In this document: positions 43,760 through 54,996 of the stretch, in pieces | Position numbering within the stretch: position 1 is the stretch's first letter | Layout of the letters: each line of letters starts with the position of its first letter | Assembly: GCF_037914945.1 (NCBI RefSeq) | Contig: NZ_CP149787.1 | Coordinates: forward strand, 2,046,001 to 2,110,000 | Source: Haloterrigena sp. KLK7 | GTDB taxonomy: Archaea > Halobacteriota > Halobacteria > Halobacteriales > Natrialbaceae | Length of the DNA: 64,000 nucleotides | Reading direction: 5' to 3' | Translations under genes and position numbers: made by a program | Notes under the pieces: model-generated | What the model was told of the DNA's origin: nothing | The model's database searches: none | Seen by the model: only the letters and a program-made list of their open reading frames with translations

Positions 43760-43948
43760 ATGGTACACGTCGCGATCGTCGGCGCGTACGGCAGCGCGGG
43801 CGTCGCCGTCGCCGACGAACTCCTCGAGCGCCGTGCCGACCTCCCGGAGCTCGAACTGACGCTGATCGACGACGGCGACCCCGGCGGCGGACTCTGCATT
43901 CTGCGGGGCTGTATGCCGAGGAAAGTCCAAATCGTACTACCTCTCTAA
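43760..43948 (+). pseudogene. 5' fragment of the flavoprotein disulfide reductase gene, cut by the element
   Basis: The original host start: MVHVAIVGAYGSAGVAVAD then DGDPGGGLCILRGCMP, containing the FAD-binding loop and both redox cysteines. After residue 53 the frame crosses the core sequence into element DNA and stops after RKVQIVLPL. Codons up to 43,920 are GC-rich host type. It keeps the host promoter but encodes only a 62-residue stub. The rest of the gene is at 53,689-54,996. Confidence 0.9.
43911..43920. other. Left attachment core (attL)
   Basis: gtatgccgag, identical to 53687-53696. The four bases aaag also follow both copies after one mismatch (g here, c at the right). The left flank is host and the right flank is element DNA. 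The strand exchange must lie at or left of the mismatch because the left copy carries the element base. The integrase stop codon is only 17 bases away. Confidence 0.85.
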
Positions 43949-45022
43949 CTTGAATATCTGATTTCGGTAATCAGTCTCGATATCCTGATAGTACGTATGG
44001 ATGTAATACTTGATCGTCCCGTTCAGGCTTTCACCCTTCGTATCTCCGCGCATATAGCCGACCAATTCTGAATTCCAGTCTTTCTTCACGGTGAAGTAGG
44101 TCGTAAAGAAGTGCCGGCCGTAATGACTGCTGATCGAGCGATATCCGTCCAGTTGGATTTCCTGAAAGTATTCATTCCATATATTCGAGCATACATTATC
44201 AGACAATTTGACATGGCTTTTCTTCGAGAGCAATAGCCACGGCTCATTGACGTTCGGGCGAACGAGAAGGTATCGAAGGATTACCTTTCGCAACTCATCA
44301 TCGAGGGGCAAAACCCGGGTTCTCGAGGATTTATTTCCGTCTCGGTCGTCCGGTATGATAATTGAATTGTCGTAATCAGTATTCTTTCCTAACGACGGAT
44401 AATGTCTCTCTAACTCATCATTATCGATGTGTACATCAGCAATTTTGATGTTCCCGACTTCACCCCGGCGCAAGCCGAGTTTGAGTTGCAGAAAGACAAT
44501 GAGCCGATCTCGATAATGTTCCGGCAGACACTCACGGATGTCGTCAAGTTCGACCGGCGGATAGTCTTTTCTTTCCTCCTTATCAGGATTCCAATTATCA
44601 AGCACCTTTTCGAACGGATTATACGTCGTTGGATGCGGCGCTGTGTGCTCCTTTTGTAAGAATTCGTAAGCGTTGTTGACCGCACGTAGTTTCACTTTGA
44701 TTGTCTGAACACTATTTTTTTCCTCGAGAGATTCAACAAAACTCCAAATATTCTGTTCAGTCGGGCATGAAGCCTCCCGTGGTTTAGATTCCATAAATTC
44801 AGACCATTCGCGCAACGATCGTTCAATAGTTGTGTGTCTTGACTTGGATAAATTCCGTTTGTCAACCACCTTGCTCATGTACATTTCAAACGGATCGGCT
44901 TCCATATCGTCTTCTTCGGATGCCTTCTCTTTCACTCTCGACATAATTTCAGATGGCTGTTCCAACGGATCTTCGTCATTACCTGTCTCTTCGGCCATAA
45001 TTCGCCGCATTTGATCTGTCAT
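43937..45022 (-). CDS. int: Tyrosine recombinase (integrase), SNJ2-type
   Basis: This 361-residue protein has an N-terminal core-binding part (RHTTIERSLREWSEFMESKP) and a C-terminal catalytic domain. The first Arg is in KLGLRRGEVGNIKI, the H-x2-R box is SSHYGRHFFTTYF, and the nucleophile Tyr is among YYIHTYYQDIETDYRNQIF near the C-terminus. I prefer the ATG at 45022 because it gives an ATGA overlap like the neighbouring junction; ATG 45061 adds 13 residues. It should catalyse recombination at the adjacent core. Operon order and overlaps match the SNJ2 IntSNJ2-Orf2-Orf3 operon. Confidence 0.9.
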   Translation of the reverse strand: MTDQMRRIMAEETGNDEDPLEQPSEIMSRVKEKASEEDDMEADPFEMYMSKVVDKRNLSKSRHTTIERSLREWSEFMESKPREASCPTEQNIWSFVESLEEKNSVQTIKVKLRAVNNAYEFLQKEHTAPHPTTYNPFEKVLDNWNPDKEERKDYPPVELDDIRECLPEHYRDRLIVFLQLKLGLRRGEVGNIKIADVHIDNDELERHYPSLGKNTDYDNSIIIPDDRDGNKSSRTRVLPLDDELRKVILRYLLVRPNVNEPWLLLSKKSHVKLSDNVCSNIWNEYFQEIQLDGYRSISSHYGRHFFTTYFTVKKDWNSELVGYMRGDTKGESLNGTIKYYIHTYYQDIETDYRNQIFKLER

Positions 45023-45459
45023 TGTACTCTTTTTCGCTCGCTGATTTTGTAGTCCCAGCATTTGCGGGTTTCAGGCCCGCTAACGACCGCTAACATGACT
45101 GGCGAATAAACGTGAGGATAATTATAATTCATCATTAAGAACTTGTAGAATCCGTGCAACCGCTGAAAGTAGAAGTACGTTGTCGTGAGACTTTTTGATT
45201 CCATCATATCGCTGAAGTAATCTTCAACCTCGTCCGGGTGAGCGAGGGCATGATGACTTTCAACATGATTTTTCCATGACTTTTCGACTCGCCGGAATCT
45301 TCGAGATTCATAATCAGAAATGTCTTTCTGAGCGACAAATTCCGACCAGACATCACGGCCGTCGAATTGGTCAGAATAGTGATATAATCGATAGTAATCC
45401 GGGATATCCTGATACTCCGTGTAAACCCCCATCAGCTGCTTGGGATCGGTCGGTCTCAT
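45019..45459 (-). CDS. Integrase accessory protein (SNJ2 Orf2-like position)
   Basis: This 146-residue helical protein (RRFRRVEKSWKNHVESHHALAHPDEVEDYFSDMMESKSLTTTYFYFQRLHGFYKFLM) looks like a stand-alone SAM-like core-binding domain of tyrosine recombinases, with no catalytic half. It overlaps both neighbours by ATGA. In SNJ2 the two small proteins of the integrase operon are required for recombination, so this is likely a recombination co-factor binding arm or core sites. The resemblance was judged by eye. Confidence 0.65.
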   Translation of the reverse strand: MRPTDPKQLMGVYTEYQDIPDYYRLYHYSDQFDGRDVWSEFVAQKDISDYESRRFRRVEKSWKNHVESHHALAHPDEVEDYFSDMMESKSLTTTYFYFQRLHGFYKFLMMNYNYPHVYSPVMLAVVSGPETRKCWDYKISERKRVQ

Positions 45460-45857
45460 CGGAGGGTGAGTGATTCAATCCCATCTCGTTCAAGAAGTTC
45501 AACTATTCTATCATGAGTCGTCTCCGTGATGTGATTTTCAAGCTCGGCGATGTCTGCCTCCGGGTTCTCGTCAAGATACTGTTTGGCTACGTGAATATCT
45601 GAACCATACAACTGATCTTCTAACTGATTGATTCGCTCACGGGCCGAATTAAGTTCTTTTTTCAAGTCATTCCGCTGTTGTCGTAACTCCTCCTTCGATA
45701 GATCGGGCCTGACCGTCGTATCAAATCCTTTATCAGTCTTAATCCCGGCTTCAGTCATCGCCCGGATAAATTCTGATTGGCTGAACCCTTTTTCTTCCGC
45801 GCGGTCCTCCCAGCGTTCTTTCTGGTCCTCGGGGACTCTCAGCGATACTAATGCCAT
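45456..45857 (-). CDS. Ribbon-helix-helix protein with coiled coil (SNJ2 Orf3-like position)
   Basis: This is a 133-residue protein. Residues 1-35 (ALVSLRVPEDQKERWEDRAEEKGFSQSEFIRAMTEAG) form a ribbon-helix-helix DNA-binding domain. About 50-85 are a coiled coil (KEELRQQRNDLKKELNSARERINQLEDQLYG), and the C-terminus is a helical domain (DIAELENHITETTHDRIVELLERDG). First gene of the integrase operon; probably a recombination directionality or operon-control factor. An A/T-rich stretch about 25 bases upstream of its ATG is consistent with a leaderless start. Confidence 0.75.
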   Translation of the reverse strand: MALVSLRVPEDQKERWEDRAEEKGFSQSEFIRAMTEAGIKTDKGFDTTVRPDLSKEELRQQRNDLKKELNSARERINQLEDQLYGSDIHVAKQYLDENPEADIAELENHITETTHDRIVELLERDGIESLTLR

Positions 45858-46067
45858 CTACAGTCCGGAAATGTATTACACCGAGTTAAACCCCACGGTA
45901 CAAGGCCTGAAGGTCCAGAATTCTCGGGATTCAGGATTAATCATCTGTTTCAATCATCACGATCCGCCCGTGAGTCGCCCCCGGTTCATAGAAAGCTCGA
46001 GAAGGCCGTTATACGGCGTTACCTGAGGGTTTTCCCGGCGGCTAAGGGGTAGCCCAGTAAAGCTGTA

Positions 46068-46262
46068 TTACTCCCGATCGCGGACGTTTGGGTCATCGAA
46101 GAAGTCAGTAATCATCATTGATTCGCCCTCGACTATTTCCGCTTCCAAAAAGTCACAAATTTGATGATCGGTAAAGTGACCGTGCCACCGCTCGAGGTCG
46201 GATTGATCGCGGTACGGATTCCGCTGCAAGAGGATCATTTGCCATTGCTGAAGGTCATTCAT
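46068..46262 (-). CDS. Small element protein, unknown
   Basis: This 64-residue acidic protein starts at ATG 46262 (MNDLQQWQMILLQRNPYRDQSDLERW). It is predicted helical, with a HGHFTDHQICDFLEAEIVEGES segment. The longer reading with a TTG start four codons upstream is less likely. No family is recognised. Codon use is that of the element. The 210 bases between it and the integrase operon hold no gene. Confidence 0.5.
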   Translation of the reverse strand: MNDLQQWQMILLQRNPYRDQSDLERWHGHFTDHQICDFLEAEIVEGESMMITDFFDDPNVRDRE

Positions 46263-46336
46263 CTTAATCGCCAATTATCACTGCCCAAAGATAACTTTTT
46301 CGTCATATTTTTATTCCTTCAAATACTAAATGGAAT

Positions 46337-46666
46337 ATGAAAGAGAATTGCCTCGATTGCGCCGAACCGACGACAGACAATTTGGCAGTGATTTGGAACG
46401 ATCCGGATTGGGGAAAGTTCATTTTTCCCGCTCGGGAGGCGTGGATTTATGAACCCGAGAAGGTCGGCTATTTCTGTGATAGCTGCTGGGAATCGTGGAA
46501 TGAGCAGCTGCAAGAGGTGAAACCGTACTTGATTCTCGCGAACAATGGTTACAAGCCGGAAATATGTTGGAAAAAGATTGACCAACTAATGAGTACAATC
46601 CCGGAGTGGTATTACGCTAAAGCGACTGTACTGCCTCCGGAGGAGATTCAAGATCGTCTTGATTAG
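46337..46666 (+). CDS. Small zinc-ribbon-type protein of the element
   Basis: This 109-residue protein has two Cys pairs, NCLDCAEPT (C5, C8) and FCDSCWESW (C47, C50), the spacing of a zinc ribbon. It is rich in Trp. A helical C-terminus follows (KIDQLMSTIPEWYYAKATVLPPEEIQDRLD). Proteins with such a Cys layout are common in haloviruses and plasmids, perhaps to recruit host DNA or RNA machinery. An A/T-rich tcaaatactaaatgg stretch just upstream may hold the promoter. Confidence 0.6.
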   Translation: MKENCLDCAEPTTDNLAVIWNDPDWGKFIFPAREAWIYEPEKVGYFCDSCWESWNEQLQEVKPYLILANNGYKPEICWKKIDQLMSTIPEWYYAKATVLPPEEIQDRLD

Positions 46667-46742
46667 TTTCAATCCCTTCGGTCTGAATCTTGTCAGCAAA
46701 GTCCGGAACCATATCCGACTAATACGGTATTATCAAACATAA

Positions 46743-47006
46743 ATGTGTCAGTATCAAACGATCGCTCGTTTCAAGCCACTCGTCCGCGGAAAAATAGTCC
46801 ACGAGATTTCATACTGTTTGTCATGTGAGGATCTCAAAGCAACGAGCTATAAGTCAAATCAGGAGATTGATAGATTCATTCACAAAGACTTAGCAGAATT
46901 AGTCCCCGATTCTGATAAAGCCTTGACGTACTGCCATACTTTAATTCGGAACGAAAGAGCTATGGTAAAACCCGAATGGTGGGATGATGTAACGGACCGT
47001 TACTGA
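46743..47006 (+). CDS. Small Cys-containing element protein
   Basis: This 87-residue protein, with SYCLSCEDLKA (C25, C28) and further Cys at 2 and in LTYCHTLIRNE, may bind one zinc. Its middle is helical (NQEIDRFIHKDLAELVPDSDKA). Next to the other zinc protein with 76 bases between them; both may be one transcript. Unknown function. Confidence 0.55.
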   Translation: MCQYQTIARFKPLVRGKIVHEISYCLSCEDLKATSYKSNQEIDRFIHKDLAELVPDSDKALTYCHTLIRNERAMVKPEWWDDVTDRY

Positions 47007-47040
47007 CGGAAAGAGAGGAAATGATTAACCTCGCCGGATT

Positions 47041-47175
47041 TCACGGGTCATCGGGGAATTTACCATCAAATGACATTTCTACCCGATCGCCGGGCGAAAT
47101 GTCATATTCGTCACGTATATCAACGGGAACTACGATCTGTCCCTGACTTGATATCTTAGCAACGAAACGAGTCAT
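47041..47175 (-). CDS. AbrB/SpoVT-type swapped-hairpin protein
   Basis: This 44-residue protein (MTRFVAKISSQGQIVVPVDI, then RDEYDISPGDRVEMSFDGKF) is a complete swapped-hairpin AbrB domain, recognised by the SSQGQIVVPVDIRDEYDISPGD core. It would dimerise and bind DNA. Its ATG overlaps the TAA of the preceding gene (TAATG), so it is the last gene of a three-gene operon. Likely the operon repressor or a plasmid regulator. A toxin partner is not obvious. Confidence 0.8.
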   Translation of the reverse strand: MTRFVAKISSQGQIVVPVDIRDEYDISPGDRVEMSFDGKFPDDP

Positions 47176-47468
47176 TATTCTGCCGATCGGATAACTTCGT
47201 TCTCTTCATTCCGGATCTCGAACGTGTCGTAAAAACTGGTATACACGTCTCCCTCGACTAATTCAAGGGGCACTTCTTCGCCATCCTCGAATAACACGCG
47301 TTTACCCGGGCCGAGGTTTAATCCGTCCGGGAAATCATCAATATTATCTTCCGTCACAGTGATAAATAAATCGCCGTGGCGGTTGATGGCCCGATCCGCG
47401 TCTTCGGGTAGGTCTCGCGTCACTTTATCGCCGTATCCAAAGTCGTCTTCTCTTACATTAGGAGTCAT
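47175..47468 (-). CDS. Small acidic element protein, unknown
   Basis: This 97-residue beta-rich protein (VTRDLPEDADRAINRHGDLFITVTEDNIDDFPDG, GKRVLFEDGEEVPLELVEGDVYTSFYDTFEI). It is second in the AbrB operon; the first gene ends 2 bases before its start. No motif recognised. It could be an antitoxin-like or small regulatory partner, which is only a guess from position. Confidence 0.55.
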   Translation of the reverse strand: MTPNVREDDFGYGDKVTRDLPEDADRAINRHGDLFITVTEDNIDDFPDGLNLGPGKRVLFEDGEEVPLELVEGDVYTSFYDTFEIRNEENEVIRSAE

Positions 47469-47470
47469 GA

Positions 47471-47710
47471 TTATTCAATATATTTGTCAAAAACCGCCTG
47501 AATGTCTTCTCGGAGATCCTCTCTCGAGGTATACTCATCATCGTTGACATCCATAATTAGGTAGGCGAGGTCGTCAGCTAACTCGGCATTACCGGTTCGC
47601 ATCTCAGTCAGCTTCCGCGCCATTTGCCGCTCATCACGGGCTGCTTCGTCCGTATCCATGTTATTGCGAACATCACGGAGCATTAACTTTTCTACTGCCG
47701 CGTAACTCAT
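47471..47710 (-). CDS. Small helical element protein, unknown
   Basis: This 79-residue helical acidic protein (RNNMDTDEAARDERQMARKLTEMRTGNAELADDLAYLIMDVNDDEY, in part) is the first gene of the three-gene AbrB operon. A TATA-like tttagtatatt about 25 bases upstream of the ATG indicates a leaderless transcript, divergent from the gene at 47791. Function unknown. Confidence 0.55.
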   Translation of the reverse strand: MSYAAVEKLMLRDVRNNMDTDEAARDERQMARKLTEMRTGNAELADDLAYLIMDVNDDEYTSREDLREDIQAVFDKYIE

Positions 47711-47790
47711 ACTTTCTCTTAGTTTTCAATATACTAAAAGCTTTGTACTCAACATTAAGATATTTACCCCTTAGTGACATATTGGGCACT

Positions 47791-48105
47791 ATGGAAATGA
47801 TTTCCAACGAAGAAGACGGGGAAATAATCGTTAACGGGGCTGAACCCTTAGCTTTAGGGATTAGCAATTCGGTCGGCGGGGAGGTCGATCGACAGGAGCA
47901 TTTGCGCCAGTTAATATCTCAATGGCTTGACGTTATTGGTTTCCGGACGAATGAAGATGTACAAAGGTGGAAGAATGAGGGGTATCGCGCTCGAGATATT
48001 TTGAACCGACTCCGAGAGGAAAAAAGAGCCGGCGAACCCCTCGAGAATTTCGATCCGTGGCCGCCCGGCCGTGACCCCCGGAAATCGTCGTTCCCAAGGG
48101 TCTGA
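47791..48105 (+). CDS. Small element protein, unknown
   Basis: This 104-residue protein from ATG 47791 (MEMISNEEDGEIIVNGAEPLALGI). An agatattta box centred 29 bases upstream fits a leaderless start; the longer frame from 47743 would run through this box. The C-terminal part is helical and basic (VQRWKNEGYRARDILNRLREEKRAGEP), perhaps nucleic-acid binding. Divergently transcribed from the AbrB operon. Confidence 0.5.
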   Translation: MEMISNEEDGEIIVNGAEPLALGISNSVGGEVDRQEHLRQLISQWLDVIGFRTNEDVQRWKNEGYRARDILNRLREEKRAGEPLENFDPWPPGRDPRKSSFPRV

Positions 48106-48112
48106 GACTCGA

Positions 48113-48164
48113 GGTTACAGCCGCCGGATTGCTGGTGCTATTCGTTTTCGAGATTTCTACATTC
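48113..48164 (+). repeat. 52-base direct repeat, left copy
   Basis: Identical to 48864-48915 except for one base (a to c at 48151/48902). The two copies lie 751 bases apart and bracket the response-regulator gene. In one frame both copies read VTAAGLLVLFVFxISTF, a membrane-helix-like peptide. Confidence 0.9.
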
Positions 48165-48270
48165 AGTTTTCAGTGAAAACGGCCGGAGAGTGGGTGCCTC
48201 TGACTCATCCCCGCACCCCCATTCCTCCATTACAATCAGTATCTATGAACTTTCCGAAGTAAACGAATGG

Positions 48271-48696
48271 TCACGGAGGGAGGTGGGCGACCTTCAGCCA
48301 GAACTTCTCGAGCGCTTCAGTAATGGTATCAGCTTCTGCCTTATCAGCGGGCTTCTTGATATGAGCATTCGCGTGGAGATCGTAGGAACGAGCGGTCTTT
48401 TCTGCTTCGATCGTCGCCGTTAATACGAGTACAGGGATCCGATGTAATTCCGGCGTATCCTTCATTTCCTTGAGTATCTCGTTACCACTCGTGCCGGGCA
48501 GATTGAGGTCAAGAAGAATCAAATCGGGGCGTGGACTATCCGCATGATCTCCCCGCTGATGGATGAAATCGAGAGCTTCGTCGCCATTGGTAACCATGTG
48601 AATCGAGGCATTTATTTCCTCAAGAGAGTCAATGAAAGATGACATTTCATCGGGAGAAGATTCTACTAAGAGAACGTCCCGATCAGAATTTCCCAT
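48271..48696 (-). CDS. Stand-alone response regulator receiver protein
   Basis: This 141-residue CheY-like protein has the phosphoacceptor Asp in LILLDLNLPG (D63), Thr in VLVLTAT (T93) and Lys in HIKKPAD (K114 or K115). The acidic pair at the start is changed to VESS, leaving one Glu (E12). There is no output domain. A ttatatattt box lies about 44 bases upstream of the ATG. It sits between 52-base direct repeats, suggesting acquired cargo. It may plug into a host sensor-kinase pathway. Confidence 0.88.
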   Translation of the reverse strand: MGNSDRDVLLVESSPDEMSSFIDSLEEINASIHMVTNGDEALDFIHQRGDHADSPRPDLILLDLNLPGTSGNEILKEMKDTPELHRIPVLVLTATIEAEKTARSYDLHANAHIKKPADKAEADTITEALEKFWLKVAHLPP

Positions 48697-48849
48697 GAGA
48701 GGAACAATGATCCGACCCTAAATCAGACTTCAACCTTATATATTTGGTAGTGAGCCGATTTCACGCCAAAATGGAGATCCGATACGCCGATCGGGATTGC
48801 TCTCCATTTCAACGTTCTTCACCGATAATAAGTGTCGACTCGCCGATCG

Positions 48850-49080
48850 ATGATACTCTCGTGGGTTACAGCCGCCGGATTGCTGGTGCTATTCGTTTTC
48901 GCGATTTCTACATTCTTCTTCGATGATCAATTTCGTCTCGCCGATCGTCGTCACCTTCGAGCGCATCAAATCAGGCGACTCAGGTGTTACCCAAATGATG
49001 ACTTGGTCATTACCATATCGGATTTCTTCAATGTCTGTGGTCTGGTACCACATATCAAAACATTCGGTCTATACCGCTAA
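48850..49080 (+). CDS. Possible small membrane protein (weak)
   Basis: The frame from ATG 48850 gives MILSWVTAAGLLVLFVF and continues AISTFFFDDQF, one convincing membrane helix, then a less convincing basic C-terminal part up to 76 residues. The helix is encoded by the right 52-base repeat. The left repeat encodes the same helix but with a stop soon after. It may be a real single-pass protein or a repeat artefact. Confidence 0.3.
   Translation: MILSWVTAAGLLVLFVFAISTFFFDDQFRLADRRHLRAHQIRRLRCYPNDDLVITISDFFNVCGLVPHIKTFGLYR
48864..48915 (+). repeat. 52-base direct repeat, right copy
   Basis: Partner of 48113-48164 with one mismatch. Recombination between the two would delete the response regulator and one repeat copy. 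Confidence 0.9.
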
Positions 49081-49393
49081 AAATCCCCTTGAGAGGTGTT
49101 TGACACCCCTATACACGGATTCACCCTGACGGGAATGATCACACTCCGTCGAATTTTGTCAGAACTGATACTCAGGATATATTACTACTCCGTACTACCG
49201 ACGGGAGAATACGCTACCCCCGAAAATCCGGCGGCTCGAGGCTTCGATTCGTATATTCAGGAAAATTGAACCGGGGTTTTTCGAGTAGTAACCCAGCTTG
49301 GAGCCGCCGGAATTCTACTCCGCCGGATTTTTTGAGAACGAACATTCAGTCTTATTGAAACGGGGATTCTAACTCGAAATCACTGACTGACGA

Positions 49394-49489
49394 TTACCAA
49401 TGACAATTTCGGCAATAGAGGCTTTCTCTATCGATTTCGGAATCAATCACCACTATTATACTTAGTTGTGGTTCATGCCGAAATGGGAG
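49394..49489 (+). repeat. 96-base inverted repeat, left copy
   Basis: Inverted copy of 52963-53058 with about seven mismatches. Internally it has near-palindromes: atttcggca near one end against tgccgaaat near the other, atcgatttcggaatc, and ccactattatacttagttgtgg. These look like protein-binding or stem-forming sites. Confidence 0.9.
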
Positions 49490-49962
49490 AAACTACCGGT
49501 AGAAGTCGTCAGCCTACGAAATCACCATTGTATGTTCATAATTCCGGATTGCCGATTTCCCACAATTCCCGCCATAAGTTATGAATATGTTTTCTGAATA
49601 ATATGCATATTATAACTCGATATAACTGGGCAATTTGGGGATATCCTCGAGCTGTCTGGCGATCGGCCGAATTAACCCGGTGGTTATCGCCGTCGTCGGG
49701 AGTTATAATCCGAGATGGCCAGTAATACTCGATTACCCTCGAGTCGCTTCAGCGGCCGCTCAGAGCGATCTTTATTTTTCTCGACATTTATTTTGCTTTC
49801 GTGCAAATATCATTCCGACGAAAACAAGCGGCTCAGGCCCCCTACCCGAGAGATTCTTAAGTAACGAGACACTATGAAGAAGTAACTCAGGATACATCGG
49901 AAGTGGAGCGGGCGGGGATGCCCGAGAGAAAGCCCCTAACACTTTCTCTTAGGTAATCCTCG

Positions 49963-49970
49963 TTTATCTA
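49963..49970 (+). promoter_or_regulatory. TATA-like box of the replication gene
   Basis: tttatcta is centred 29 bases before the ATG at 49996. This is the normal archaeal spacing if transcription begins at or next to the start codon, so the mRNA is probably leaderless. Confidence 0.45.
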
Positions 49971-49995
49971 CCTTCCGGTATCTGAGCTATCAGAT

Positions 49996-52920
49996 ATGAC
50001 AGGAGAATTACCTATCGAGAAAGATGCGGACGATTTCGCGCGAAATTATTGCTACTTCGTTCCGGGGCGAATAGACAGATCAAAAAGACCGGGCGAGGTA
50101 TACGGCGGTTATCCCGGGAATCCCGTCGCTGAGGACAAAGAAGAGATGTTCCCGGATCGAGACGTATATCCGGAATTTTCAGAAAACGACAATGTCTATT
50201 CGGGCGAGCAAATGTATGAATCCAAATACGATAAATATGACATATATTTCTGTTTACTCGGCGGGAAGCTCGAGTATCAGGGCGAAACGTATTATTCGCT
50301 CGTTCTCGATTACGACTTTTATAAAATCGAAGACGAATCAAAAAGAAGGACTTACGAAAACCATGATTTCGTCCGGCAAGGTGGCATGGTTGTTGAGAGT
50401 CAGTCCGGCGGGAAACACCAGTATTTCTTAACAAAAGATCCCGACATTCTCGAGGGATTGAAGGCCGCGGAGCATGTTGACTTGAAAGGGTTTGTCGCGG
50501 GCGGATTTACCCTCTGGTGGGGGAATACGGATGATTATAACCTCATATCAGATAACTTTCCATTAGTTGTTGATCGCGAGGATCTACTGCGGACTCCCTT
50601 TGTTGAGGAGAAACCGGATCGGAAAAATAGGGGCGCCGATGTGCCGGAAATATCGCGAAAAAAGACCATCGAGATGAAGGAAACGTCGGATATCAAGGAA
50701 TTATTCGCGGCAATTAATAATGTCAAACTCTCCGATGTTAATCTCGATTTACCCGAACATCCGGATTACGGCGCCCCGGTGTATGATCCGTCCTTTTATC
50801 GAACGACCGGCGGTAGTGATTCATTCGAGTGGGACCCCGGAATCAATGCCTTTTGGGACCGAAAGGGACAGACCACTACCTATCGGGTTTTTGATATTTT
50901 CAGAGTCGTCGCGGATTACGTCGATCACCCGGATGAATCCATCTATGGCAGTCAATTCTTTGAAGCCGTCGAGGAATTCCGTAAATCCGGGGCACCTATC
51001 CCGGAATATACCGACGAATTTGGGGTTGAAAAGTGTGAGCCGCCGGGATTTGAAAAACGGAAATGGACGGGCGGCGATGAGATCCGAGAGGAGGAGATTC
51101 CAAATTTCGTGAAGAACGCGGGTGAAAAAACGCGGTTACTCTCCTATGACCCCGGGATCGGCAAGACCTATACAACGACGAAAACAGCCCTCGAGAACGA
51201 GATCCCGTTTGTCATTTACTTTGAAAATCATACCAAGGCGAAAGAGCATTATGATTTAATGCGGGACAAATTCGGGGTTGAGCCGCTCTATCTCCGGGGA
51301 ATTACACAGCCCGGTATGTGCGAATTAGTAAGCGAGCATGAAGATGAATTTAGGGAGCTGAGTCAGCATTTTAAACACGGTAAATCTCATTTAATTCTCG
51401 AGGATCGACATGGCGATTGCAACTGTCAATGGAAGCGTCAGTTCGACAAGATTGATGTTGCAGATTATATAATCGCGCCGAACGCTTACCTCGGGTATGA
51501 GGACCTGACCGGGCGGCTCCAGATTATTGATGAATCCGGAATTATTGGTATTGAAAAGGAACGGTATGGGAAGAATGATCTCAGAGATTACCGAGATTTC
51601 ATTCAAGATGAAATGGAGTATCCCTCGATTGTCCAGCATATCAATGACCTGATAGACTTAATCCGCGGAGAGACAGTTACTCCGGAGTGGAAATTAGGAA
51701 AGTGGGACACATACCGCGCGAAACTTGACATATCAACCCGGGTTAAGGAACTTGCTCGAGAGGGGGACTATCACGATGATTTGACTAATGCGATATTATC
51801 GCACGCCGGATTCGAAGGTGGGAAAGTCGCTGGCGATGAGATTATCCTAAACGGAGGCTGTCAAGAATTTGAACACTATCAGCGAGTAATTAAACCGACC
51901 GAGGAAGAAGAGGGGATCAAAGTTGTAAAACAGCCCACATACCTTCATTCCGCCGAAATCCGGCAGAAAGAAGGCAACTTCCCCGGCGGATTATTCCACA
52001 AGCGGATTCCGACGTACAAATACCTGAATCCGATCATTCTCGACGCTACTCCGAATATCAATTTGATTGAACGTCAATTCGGAGAATTCGACCAGATCGG
52101 GGATGATACTTTCGAGTGCGAAAACCTCACAGTTATTCAAATAACAGATGGAATGTATCATCCCGGCACCATATCGCAAAGTGATGGATTACAAGAGCGT
52201 ATTCAGGTATTACTCGATGCCGCGCCGCCAAACATGCTGCACGTAGCCTCGAAGGATCATCTCTCGACCTTCGATTTTCCCGGCGAATCGGTACATTATC
52301 ATGGACTTCGAGGTCTAAATAAGAAGGAAAAAGATGGGGTAATTTTAGTCGGCGCCCCGCACCCGAGAATCGATGATTTACGTCAACAAGCCGAGATGTT
52401 CACCGATCAGGATTTCGCGGAATACTCGGAAAGAGAAAGCAATCCAAGGTACGAAAAATATAATTTCACGGATTCTGATGGCATCGGCCGAAAAGCCCCG
52501 ACTAAGCAATTCGACGGACTATTCGGATTTTGGGAAAATCTCACTACCGACGAAATGAAACAAGCAATTCACAGAATTCGGCCGATTACGTCCGAAAAAG
52601 AACAAATAGCGGTTATTATTTCCAATGTTCCCTTACCGGTCGAAGTGGATCACTTGGTTACGTGGGACGACATTCTCGATAAAAACAGTGACGAGGCTAT
52701 CGAATTGTTCGACCATTTCCGCGGTGAAACGGTTACCTCGAGTGAATTGCTGAATAAACCCGGTCTCGCCGACGATACTATCCGATATCATCGCCGACAG
52801 CTTGAATCTGCGGGTTATGTGGAAAATTTAGGGAAGAAAAGTTTCGAAAAACCTGAACGGGAATATGAATTCAAAGATATTGATATATCGCCAATCAATG
52901 TTAACCTGCCATTGGAATAG
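49996..52920 (+). CDS. Replication protein: primase-polymerase plus helicase
   Basis: This 974-residue protein appears to be the element's replicase. Residues about 90-200 are a Prim-Pol-like domain: DxD metal site in LVLDYDF (D105, D107), the SGGKHQYFL motif (137-145) and VDLKGF (161-166). From about 375 follows an SF2-like helicase: Walker A YDPGIGKTYTT (D385-T391), Walker B-like QIIDES (near 512) and motif VI-like QAIHRIRP (about 856-863). The last 80 residues are a winged helix (SSELLNKPGLADDTIRYHRRQLESAGYVE). It lies between the two 96-base inverted repeats. Confidence 0.8.
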   Translation: MTGELPIEKDADDFARNYCYFVPGRIDRSKRPGEVYGGYPGNPVAEDKEEMFPDRDVYPEFSENDNVYSGEQMYESKYDKYDIYFCLLGGKLEYQGETYYSLVLDYDFYKIEDESKRRTYENHDFVRQGGMVVESQSGGKHQYFLTKDPDILEGLKAAEHVDLKGFVAGGFTLWWGNTDDYNLISDNFPLVVDREDLLRTPFVEEKPDRKNRGADVPEISRKKTIEMKETSDIKELFAAINNVKLSDVNLDLPEHPDYGAPVYDPSFYRTTGGSDSFEWDPGINAFWDRKGQTTTYRVFDIFRVVADYVDHPDESIYGSQFFEAVEEFRKSGAPIPEYTDEFGVEKCEPPGFEKRKWTGGDEIREEEIPNFVKNAGEKTRLLSYDPGIGKTYTTTKTALENEIPFVIYFENHTKAKEHYDLMRDKFGVEPLYLRGITQPGMCELVSEHEDEFRELSQHFKHGKSHLILEDRHGDCNCQWKRQFDKIDVADYIIAPNAYLGYEDLTGRLQIIDESGIIGIEKERYGKNDLRDYRDFIQDEMEYPSIVQHINDLIDLIRGETVTPEWKLGKWDTYRAKLDISTRVKELAREGDYHDDLTNAILSHAGFEGGKVAGDEIILNGGCQEFEHYQRVIKPTEEEEGIKVVKQPTYLHSAEIRQKEGNFPGGLFHKRIPTYKYLNPIILDATPNINLIERQFGEFDQIGDDTFECENLTVIQITDGMYHPGTISQSDGLQERIQVLLDAAPPNMLHVASKDHLSTFDFPGESVHYHGLRGLNKKEKDGVILVGAPHPRIDDLRQQAEMFTDQDFAEYSERESNPRYEKYNFTDSDGIGRKAPTKQFDGLFGFWENLTTDEMKQAIHRIRPITSEKEQIAVIISNVPLPVEVDHLVTWDDILDKNSDEAIELFDHFRGETVTSSELLNKPGLADDTIRYHRRQLESAGYVENLGKKSFEKPEREYEFKDIDISPINVNLPLE

Positions 52921-52962
52921 CTAATGGTAATTCACCGGTCTGACGGCTCATAAGCTCAATTT

Positions 52963-53058
52963 CTCCGATTTCGGCATGAGCCACAACTAAGTATAATAGT
53001 GGTGATCGATTCCGAAATCGATAGAGAATGCCTCTATTGCCGGAATTTCCATTGGTAA
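52963..53058 (-). repeat. 96-base inverted repeat, right copy
   Basis: Starts 42 bases after the rep stop codon and is the inverse of 49394-49489. The gap from rep to the restored flavoprotein gene (52921-53394) otherwise holds only a hairpin at 53230 and no convincing gene. A TTG-started frame at 53160-53450 is rejected. Confidence 0.9.
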
Positions 53059-53229
53059 CTAATTGACTATCAGCTTTTTGATATTCTGACATCAGCCATT
53101 GCTCCCGGTTTTGGTTTTCGGCCAAATAATTTGGTGATTCACAAAGACTGGTCGAAAACTTGAAAAGCCACGAAACCGTACTATTAATTGCTGCTCGTCG
53201 TCAGGCTCAATCCGGCCACTTGGCTAAAG

Positions 53230-53250
53230 CGGGCGTCAATGCCCGTTTTT
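53230..53250 (+). terminator. Hairpin followed by T-run
   Basis: cgggc at 53230-53234 pairs with gcccg at 53241-53245 across gtcaat, directly followed by ttttt. It would stop transcription from the rep side and insulate the restored flavoprotein gene. Confidence 0.5.
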
Positions 53251-53394
53251 CCGACAACGGCCTTTTAATTGACACGTTCGTTCTCGAGAAATCCGGCGGA
53301 GTGACATCTATCGGGCTCGAGGGTAGGGGTTTCACTGGTAAGATTGTCTTACAAATCCGAGGACTAACGACTGTTCAAAATCATACTTTGAGCC

Positions 53395-54996
53395 ATGCAC
53401 GTTGCCATTATTGGCGCGTATGGATCGGCCGGAGTTGCAGTCGCGGATGAATTACTCGATCTGGAACCAGATGTTGAATTGACACTAATTGATAATGGCG
53501 ATCCGGGCGGCGGGCTGTGTATCTTACGTGGGTGTATGCCAAGCAAGGATGTATTATCAGCGGGTCAACATCTGTATCAATTCCGTCATGATGACCGACT
53601 TTCTGTTTCCTGTAATAATGCGCTCGAGGACTATTCAGATTGGGTGATTGACCAAATTCCTGATGAGGTGTATGACGATTTCGACAGTATGCCGAGCAAA
53701 GATGTCCTTTCGGCCGGACAGCATCACTACCAGGCGCGCCACGACGACCGACTCGAGGGCGTCCCCGACGTCGATCTCGAGGCGGTCGTCGCCCGAAAGG
53801 ACGAGCACGTCTCGGGATTCGCCGAACATCGCCGCGGTCACGTTCACGAGCTGGCCGAACGGGAGGGCGTCGAGTTCCTCCGCGAGACGGCGCGGTTCGT
53901 CGACGATCGCGTCCTCGCGGTCGGCGACCGCCGACTCGAACCGGATTACGTCGTGATCGCGACCGGGTCCGTACCGAACATCCCAGAGCTGCCGGGCATC
54001 GACGACGTGCCGGTTCGGACGAGCGCGGACGTCCTCGACGCGGCCGCGTTCCCCGACTCGGGTCTCATTCTGGGCAACGGCTACATCAGCCTCGAGCTCG
54101 GTCCCTATCTCAGCGAGGTCGGCGACGTCGATCTCACCGTCGTCGAGCACGACGAACGGCCGCTCGACGCGTTTCCGGACGCCTACGGCGACACCCTCCT
54201 CGAGATCTACCGCGACCAGTTCGGGATCGAGGTGTTGACGACGACGGACGAGAAGCGCCTCGAACCGACCGACGACGGCGGCGTTCGCCTGTTCGTCGAG
54301 CGAGACGGCGAGGGCGAGGAGCGCGCGATCGAAGCGGACGAACTCTACTGCTTCACCGGTCGCAGTCCGAACCTCGAGGGACTGGGCCTCGAGCACACGC
54401 GGCTCGAACCGGGTTCGGGCTGGGTGGGGTCGACGATGCAGGCGACCGACGACGAGCGCGTCTTCGTCGTCGGCGACGCGAACGGCCGCGAGCCGATCCT
54501 CCACGTCGCCAAGGAACAGGGCTTCGCGGCCGCAGCGAACGTCGTCCACCACGCGCGCGGCGACGACCTCGAGCCCTACGCGAACGTCCCCCACCACGTG
54601 ATCTTCTCGGGACTGGGCGTCTACCCCGTCGCCAGGGTGGGGCACACGCCCGCGACGGCCGCCGAGTCGGGGATGGACGCCTTCGTCGTCACCCGCGAGG
54701 TCTCGTCCGACGGCGTCTTCAAGACCAAGGACCACCCGGAGGGGCGGGCGACGCTGGTCGTCGACGCCAACAGCGGGGCCGTCCTCGGCTATCAGGGCGT
54801 CCACCTCCACGCCGACGTGATGGCGAAGACGATGCAGGTCGTCGTCGAGATGGGACTGGACGTCCGCGAGGTCCCCAATCGGGCCTACCACCCCACGACG
54901 CCCGAAATCCTCGACGGCCTCTTCCGCGACGCCTGCGCCGAACTCGAGGAGCGTCAACAGTGCGTCGGTCCCGATTCGCGGGATTCGGCGCTGTAG
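53395..54996 (+). CDS. Dihydrolipoamide dehydrogenase-like flavoprotein, element-host chimera
   Basis: This 533-residue protein is a class I pyridine nucleotide-disulfide oxidoreductase. Residues 1-98 come from element DNA: FAD loop AIIGAYGSAG, redox motif GGGLCILRGCMPSKDV (C42, C47), then a 29-residue acidic segment after RHDDRL. At codon 99 the frame joins host DNA and repeats MPSKDVLSAGQH (99-110). Host part has the NAD loop GLILGNGYISLELG and the C-terminal dimer domain GVYPVARVGHTPATAAESG, ending in the His-x4-Glu-like AYHPTTPEIL. Uninterrupted host protein would have been 486 residues. The promoter is presumably element-borne. Confidence 0.85.
   Translation: MHVAIIGAYGSAGVAVADELLDLEPDVELTLIDNGDPGGGLCILRGCMPSKDVLSAGQHLYQFRHDDRLSVSCNNALEDYSDWVIDQIPDEVYDDFDSMPSKDVLSAGQHHYQARHDDRLEGVPDVDLEAVVARKDEHVSGFAEHRRGHVHELAEREGVEFLRETARFVDDRVLAVGDRRLEPDYVVIATGSVPNIPELPGIDDVPVRTSADVLDAAAFPDSGLILGNGYISLELGPYLSEVGDVDLTVVEHDERPLDAFPDAYGDTLLEIYRDQFGIEVLTTTDEKRLEPTDDGGVRLFVERDGEGEERAIEADELYCFTGRSPNLEGLGLEHTRLEPGSGWVGSTMQATDDERVFVVGDANGREPILHVAKEQGFAAAANVVHHARGDDLEPYANVPHHVIFSGLGVYPVARVGHTPATAAESGMDAFVVTREVSSDGVFKTKDHPEGRATLVVDANSGAVLGYQGVHLHADVMAKTMQVVVEMGLDVREVPNRAYHPTTPEILDGLFRDACAELEERQQCVGPDSRDSAL
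53687..53696. other. Right attachment core (attR)
   Basis: gtatgccgag, then caaagatgtcc of the host gene. On the left flank is element DNA coding DDFDS, on the right the host codons SKDVLSAGQHHYQ. A synonymously altered copy of the same coding motif lies upstream inside the element at 53534-53549. Confidence 0.85.

Follow-up and report, generated by a model that had tools for sequence, protein, structure and literature searches.

A haloarchaeal integrase element that probably restores, imperfectly, the 5' end of a conserved disulphide oxidoreductase gene

Introduction

Integration of mobile elements with a captured 5' gene end has been documented mainly in bacteria. According to Hochhut and Waldor (1999), as cited in PMC8409611, the SXT/R391 ICE provides the prfC gene that it interrupts with both a promoter and an N-terminus. 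Similarly, IMEVchUSA3, which encodes a tyrosine recombinase, inserts in the 5' part of dusA and carries a diverged, in-frame 5' coding sequence with 61% identity over 35 aa, and the new promoter of the gene was demonstrated by lacZ fusion (PMC8409611). For archaea, the sections of a review concerned with SNJ2-type integrases describe them as sharing an operon with genes for two small proteins and as using short att cores of 13 bp (PMC8371274); in the entries where that review lists integrations within coding genes, no 5' restoration is described.

Here, we describe an integrated element that splits a conserved oxidoreductase gene of a haloarchaeon and carries a diverged copy of the 5' end of this gene, which reads in frame into the host gene body.

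Structure and gene content of the integrated element

The window, meaning the whole stretch of 64,000 nucleotides analysed, contains an AT-rich insert of about 9.8 kb (43911–53696 when counted with the left core), which stands out in the GC profile of the window. A 10-bp core, GTATGCCGAG, is identical at both junctions and reads MPS in the frame of the target gene, just 3' of its redox cysteines. The features of the region are the following.

43760–43948, forward strand: displaced 5' end of the host oxidoreductase gene, reading MVHVAIVGAYG...CILRGCMPR, then KVQIVLPL and a stop
43911–43920, forward strand: left junction core, located by sequence
43921–53696, no strand assigned: integrated element of about 9.78 kb, GC about 45–50% versus about 68% in its surroundings, with the core repeat at both ends
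43937–45061, reverse strand: tyrosine recombinase (integrase), Pfam Phage_integrase 5e-10 and PHROG integrase 2.6e-21
45019–45459, reverse strand: accessory ORF of 146 aa, kept beside related integrases (tblastn, many related loci)
45456–45857, reverse strand: ORF of 133 aa, weakly ribbon-helix-helix (NikA-like), kept beside related integrases
48271–48696, reverse strand: stand-alone response-regulator receiver protein, Pfam Response_reg 6e-17
49996–52920, forward strand: ORF of 974 aa without a family match, with a P-loop-like GIGKT motif seen by eye
53395–53601, forward strand: element-borne oxidoreductase 5' copy, residues 1–69, with both redox cysteines and helix copy 1
53687–53696, forward strand: right junction core, located by sequence
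53395–54996, forward strand: chimeric pyridine nucleotide-disulphide oxidoreductase ORF, 533 aa, ATG start

The 3' end of the integrase gene adjoins the left junction, in an orientation that points back to the displaced host 5' end. This host fragment is broken within MPSK, the KVQIVLPL and stop that follow being encoded by the element, and over 53 aa it shares 91% identity with the corresponding segment of congeners. Both small accessory ORFs lie upstream of the integrase gene, and related operons are found in many haloarchaeal genomes. The receiver protein has a homologue of 42% identity in a related element (L155:4707–5102). For the 974-aa ORF, the only plasmid relative found was a Halococcus dombrowskii protein with 30% identity, and the GIGKT motif makes a replication helicase a possible assignment.

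The interrupted oxidoreductase gene

The 533-aa ORF matches the Pfam families Pyr_redox_2 (3e-35) and Pyr_redox_dim (4e-11), it carries a CxxxxC redox motif (C42 and C47), and the residues H499 and E504 of its C-terminal His-Glu motif are invariant in the orthologue alignment. These domains and motifs point to a class I pyridine nucleotide-disulphide oxidoreductase, and the Foldseek matches of the chimera are class I disulphide reductases, namely, mercuric and lipoamide reductases. Homologues in haloarchaea that carry the annotation dihydrolipoyl dehydrogenase may be enzymes of another kind, bis-gamma-glutamylcystine reductases (PMC7278568), an identity that we take from the literature as a lead; in the search for it, no model scored above its cut-off.

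The gene is uninterrupted in five congeners, and an insertion after the redox cysteines is absent from all 38 aligned orthologues. The N-terminal piece has matches in 83 of the 86 sampled genera, the strongest of them being this oxidoreductase gene. Given that even the nearest paralogues of the source genome show only about 33–34% identity, there is no obvious spare copy of the enzyme. In one orthologue from another genus (L131:5617–7067), the frame is broken near residue 220 in chimera numbering, which may be a sequencing error or mark a pseudogene. The shortened orthologue frame of another genome (G093) was considered as an insertion case and rejected, as it reflects a separate frame break. 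At one further locus (L211), the gene lies near an integrase fragment, but nothing points to an insertion in the gene, and it was discarded as a sister insertion. No close sister element at this site was found in 391 genomes of the class, in GTDB r220 contigs or in viral contigs.

A doubled helix and a linker at the right-hand junction

The segment MPSKDVLSAGQH-YQ-RHDDRL is present twice in the 533-residue ORF, at residues 48–69 and 99–120, flanking an acidic linker of 29 residues.

53536–53601, forward strand: helix copy 1, MPSKDVLSAGQHLYQFRHDDRL, residues 48–69, element-borne and compared with copy 2
53602–53688, forward strand: acidic linker, SVSCNNALEDYSDWVIDQIPDEVYDDFDS, residues 70–98, 29 residues with 9 D/E, element-derived
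53689–53754, forward strand: helix copy 2, MPSKDVLSAGQHHYQARHDDRL, residues 99–120, host-derived, beginning at the core and matching congener genes

An earlier sequence-only reading of this DNA had recognized the repeat with its linker in the ORF at 53395–54996, the doubling of the helix that follows CxxxxC and the lack of cysteines in the second copy, all of which we confirmed, as the redox cysteines, C42 and C47, are found only ahead of copy 1. It had placed the duplication at 53595–53760, an interval that spans the linker and copy 2 and leaves copy 1 outside. The 47 extra residues that it counted hold as the net difference between the chimera and the inferred native length (533 versus about 486 residues), not as the size of the inserted block, which is 51 residues (29 of linker and 22 of repeat); the net gain is 47 because the element N-terminus is four residues shorter elsewhere.

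The two helix copies are identical at 20 of 22 residues, yet 20 of their 66 DNA positions differ. Judged from this comparison, the repeat is far from chance, and it is the right-hand junction of the integrated element, not an internal duplication event. A duplication within the host gene was rejected, as the two copies differ in origin and codon usage. The linker was also considered as a degenerate host sequence or as a fragment of the 974-aa gene, and both origins were discarded because matches were at chance level only. At the start of copy 2 (53689–53727), AT-ward synonymous differences are clustered relative to all five congeners; gene conversion between the helix copies, considered on the basis of this cluster, is not claimed (scan test, P=0.08).

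The reading frame is kept across the junction, where the element 5' copy and the linker read openly into the host gene, and the displaced host 5' end and the element 5' copy flank the AT-rich element. Both observations agree with the earlier proposal of a chimera made at the junction between element and host. The preserved frame, which the same reading had contrasted with a random insertion, is not a lucky outcome of such an insertion but follows from probable site-specific integration at a 10-bp core lying in frame, with an element that brings a protein-conserved 5' copy. Of the two outcomes that this reading had offered, the enzyme may tolerate a loop at this place or the element may make a modified enzyme.

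Structure prediction of the chimera, proposed earlier as a check, bore out the fold and left the active-site region at low confidence. AlphaFold was run twice, with full-length orthologue rows in the first run and, in the second, with rows restricted to the part that follows the helix. In both runs, the N-terminal beta-alpha-beta unit was predicted with confidence and the other domains mostly so, and the overall predicted fold, also considering the Foldseek matches, is not visibly broken by the insertion. The stretch of the redox cysteines and the linker had pLDDT values below 50, for about residues 36–100 in both runs, reaching residue 124 in the second. The alignment prefers copy 2 over copy 1 for a trivial reason, a single matching residue.

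Origin and conservation of the element-borne 5' copy

Over 158 bp, the element 5' copy and the host remnant share 67% of their DNA positions; at the amino acid level, the copy is 87% identical to the closest orthologue, and its GC3 is 0.40, versus 0.63–0.94 in all other orthologues read. Since it lacks three residues of an N-terminal loop found in the host genus, it must have come from elsewhere and cannot have been copied directly from the gene of this host; a tree of N-terminal segments singled out no donor.

Comparison of codons 48–69 of copy 1 with copy 2 yielded a pN of 0.09 and a pS of about 1. For the whole element 5' copy, pN/pS was about 0.1, and relative to the nearest orthologues of the same length, pN was about 0.10 and synonymous change was close to saturated. 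Under a null of 20 nucleotide changes in 66, an average of 9.6 residues remained identical, and 20 identical residues were reached in none of 5000 simulations (P<0.0002), which argues that copy 1 has been maintained as protein. This maintenance would have taken place either on the element itself or in a donor outside the sample; the main alternative for the conservation of the copy is that it could be partly inherited from an unsampled, AT-richer donor. Codons 48–69 are conserved past the crossover point, where a seamless design would have no need of them. Such conservation would follow if, owing to the linker, the redox helix has to be provided in full by the element.

Related integrase elements

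A related integrase element is located in a Nop5-family gene (Pfam Nop, 8e-38) on a contig of the Natronomonas MAG LUM.42 (L168; also L177). The case was located at 2676–2960 and 18451–19287 of L168, and a 9-bp core, ATGGACGAC, present at 2934 and 18709, bounds a stretch of about 15.8 kb on either side. Here, the displaced host Nop5 5' end terminates shortly past the core, whereas the 5' end carried by the element, which shares 55% protein identity with it, runs seamlessly into the host gene body. This case resembles the oxidoreductase element in its related integrase, short ATG-containing core, diverged element 5' end and displaced host 5' end. It differs in its seamless joint, without repeat or linker, and in the placement of the gene body at the integrase side, whereas in the oxidoreductase element the gene body is at the far side. 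On the evidence of these two loci, at least two captures of 5' gene ends can be attributed to the same integrase group.

A clear captured gene end was absent in most other related elements, for which extracts of about 20 kb were searched. At three loci (L095, L096 and L092), the 3' side of the integrase adjoins, by eye, the apparent 3' end of a gene for chorismate mutase (two genomes) or a RibB-like protein, which suggests that the group may also target gene 3' ends.

Proposed mechanism and alternative explanations

Site-specific integration with imperfect restoration of the 5' end is the best reading of this locus, and we consider it probable. In this scenario, a tyrosine-integrase element would have integrated at the core of about 10 bp inside a conserved haloarchaeal class I oxidoreductase gene, severing the host 5' end, which would remain upstream of the element. 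The element would bring a substitute, consisting of orthologue residues 1–69 and the 29-residue linker, in frame into the core, so that integration would rebuild the full ORF at 53395–54996, which must then have its start within the element. With the linker placed between the redox segment of the element and the core, the element would have to supply the whole redox helix as copy 1, and the host helix, copy 2, would become a redundant insert of 22 residues, for a total of 51 inserted residues. We infer that integrase-catalysed recombination produced the insertion and that a promoter of the element drives the chimeric gene. Copy 1 would be the working redox helix of the predicted chimera, and the benefit of restoration would presumably lie in a host gene that is kept working. 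Against this reading count the 51 added residues, which are not expected of an element that restores perfectly, the low pLDDT values around the redox cysteines, the possible inheritance of conservation from an AT-richer donor, and the absence, in the sets searched, of a close sister element with which the linker could be compared.

It is rather unlikely that the gene has been inactivated, the 5' piece of the element being a relic, the in-frame joint luck and the chimera not made or not folded. The insert does sit directly beside the active site, the structure around it is predicted with low confidence, and an open in-frame joint has a chance of about 4–11% anyway, given that random 87-nt segments of the element are open in 11–32% of draws and that the frame is a one-in-three choice. 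Against inactivation stand the open joint itself, the conservation of copy 1 and residues 1–47 as protein with saturated synonymous change, the conservation of the oxidoreductase gene in nearly all genera and the Nop5 case, which behaves alike, and seamlessly. We regard as improbable that the enzyme is deliberately modified, with an acidic linker and an extra helix that would be adaptive by changing its substrate, oligomer or regulation in favour of the element; if true, integration would act as an enzyme-editing switch, reversed by excision. The linker is absent from all orthologues examined, and its content of 9 acidic residues in 29 is reached or exceeded by 0.7–2.2% of open random segments, a figure that, like that for the openness of the joint, is post hoc and would amount to modest evidence. 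However, high acidity is usual among haloarchaeal proteins, the insert has no tie to an altered activity, and this modification is seen in a single copy only.

As the frame at the left junction reads MPRKVQIVLPL followed by a stop, a free circle would encode a product of 109 aa (98 residues and then MPRKVQIVLPL), which could be a functional small protein, with the chimera as a by-product. We consider this very improbable: the piece is an incomplete FAD domain, and it is conserved in the manner of a segment that is to be joined to the remainder of the enzyme. An assembly artefact is conceivable in that the locus is judged from assembled sequence, but its probability is extremely low, the contig being 3.84 Mb long, the composition, att repeats and complete integrase operon being those of a real element, and the same design recurring in an independent genome with the Nop5 case.

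Comparison with known systems

The integration scenario that we favour invites comparison with the SNJ2-type and the restoring elements. With the former, the element shares a haloarchaeal Phage_integrase domain and an operon with two small genes, and the likeness is one of domain and operon layout. In the SNJ2 sections of PMC8371274, the target is a tRNA gene, whereas the element described here targets a protein gene, and the SNJ2 accessory proteins are of 111 and 140 aa and coiled-coil/MarR-like, compared with 146 and 133 aa here.

As in restoring elements, an integrase lies beside a short att core within a coding gene, the core is present at both ends, and a 5' coding sequence brought by the element continues in frame into the host gene; the product departs from the native length. 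SXT/R391, as far as the cited account describes it, differs in element type and host domain, its target encoding release factor 3. IMEVchUSA3 and other dusA-targeting elements share with the haloarchaeal element the insertion in the 5' part of a gene and an in-frame, diverged 5' copy. However, the new N-terminus given by IMEVchUSA3 is of identical length, whereas the haloarchaeal element adds a 51-residue block with a repeated active-site helix. Moreover, the dusA system is bacterial and its promoter has been shown, whereas the present one is archaeal and its promoter putative. Owing to its 51-residue insertion, the haloarchaeal element works like the SXT/prfC and IME/dusA elements but is not a faithful member of their kind.

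The oxidoreductase and Nop5 cases are two archaeal elements located inside essential-looking protein genes, and the captured 5' end that each carries is the price of this location. What makes the oxidoreductase case unusual is a repair that falls short at the active site, and it therefore offers a direct test of the tolerance of class I disulphide reductases to changes after the redox helix. It also allows testing whether gene repair is what such elements are selected for. The oxidoreductase element is an archaeal, imperfect variant of the 5'-end-restoring integration known from SXT/prfC and IMEVchUSA3/dusA.
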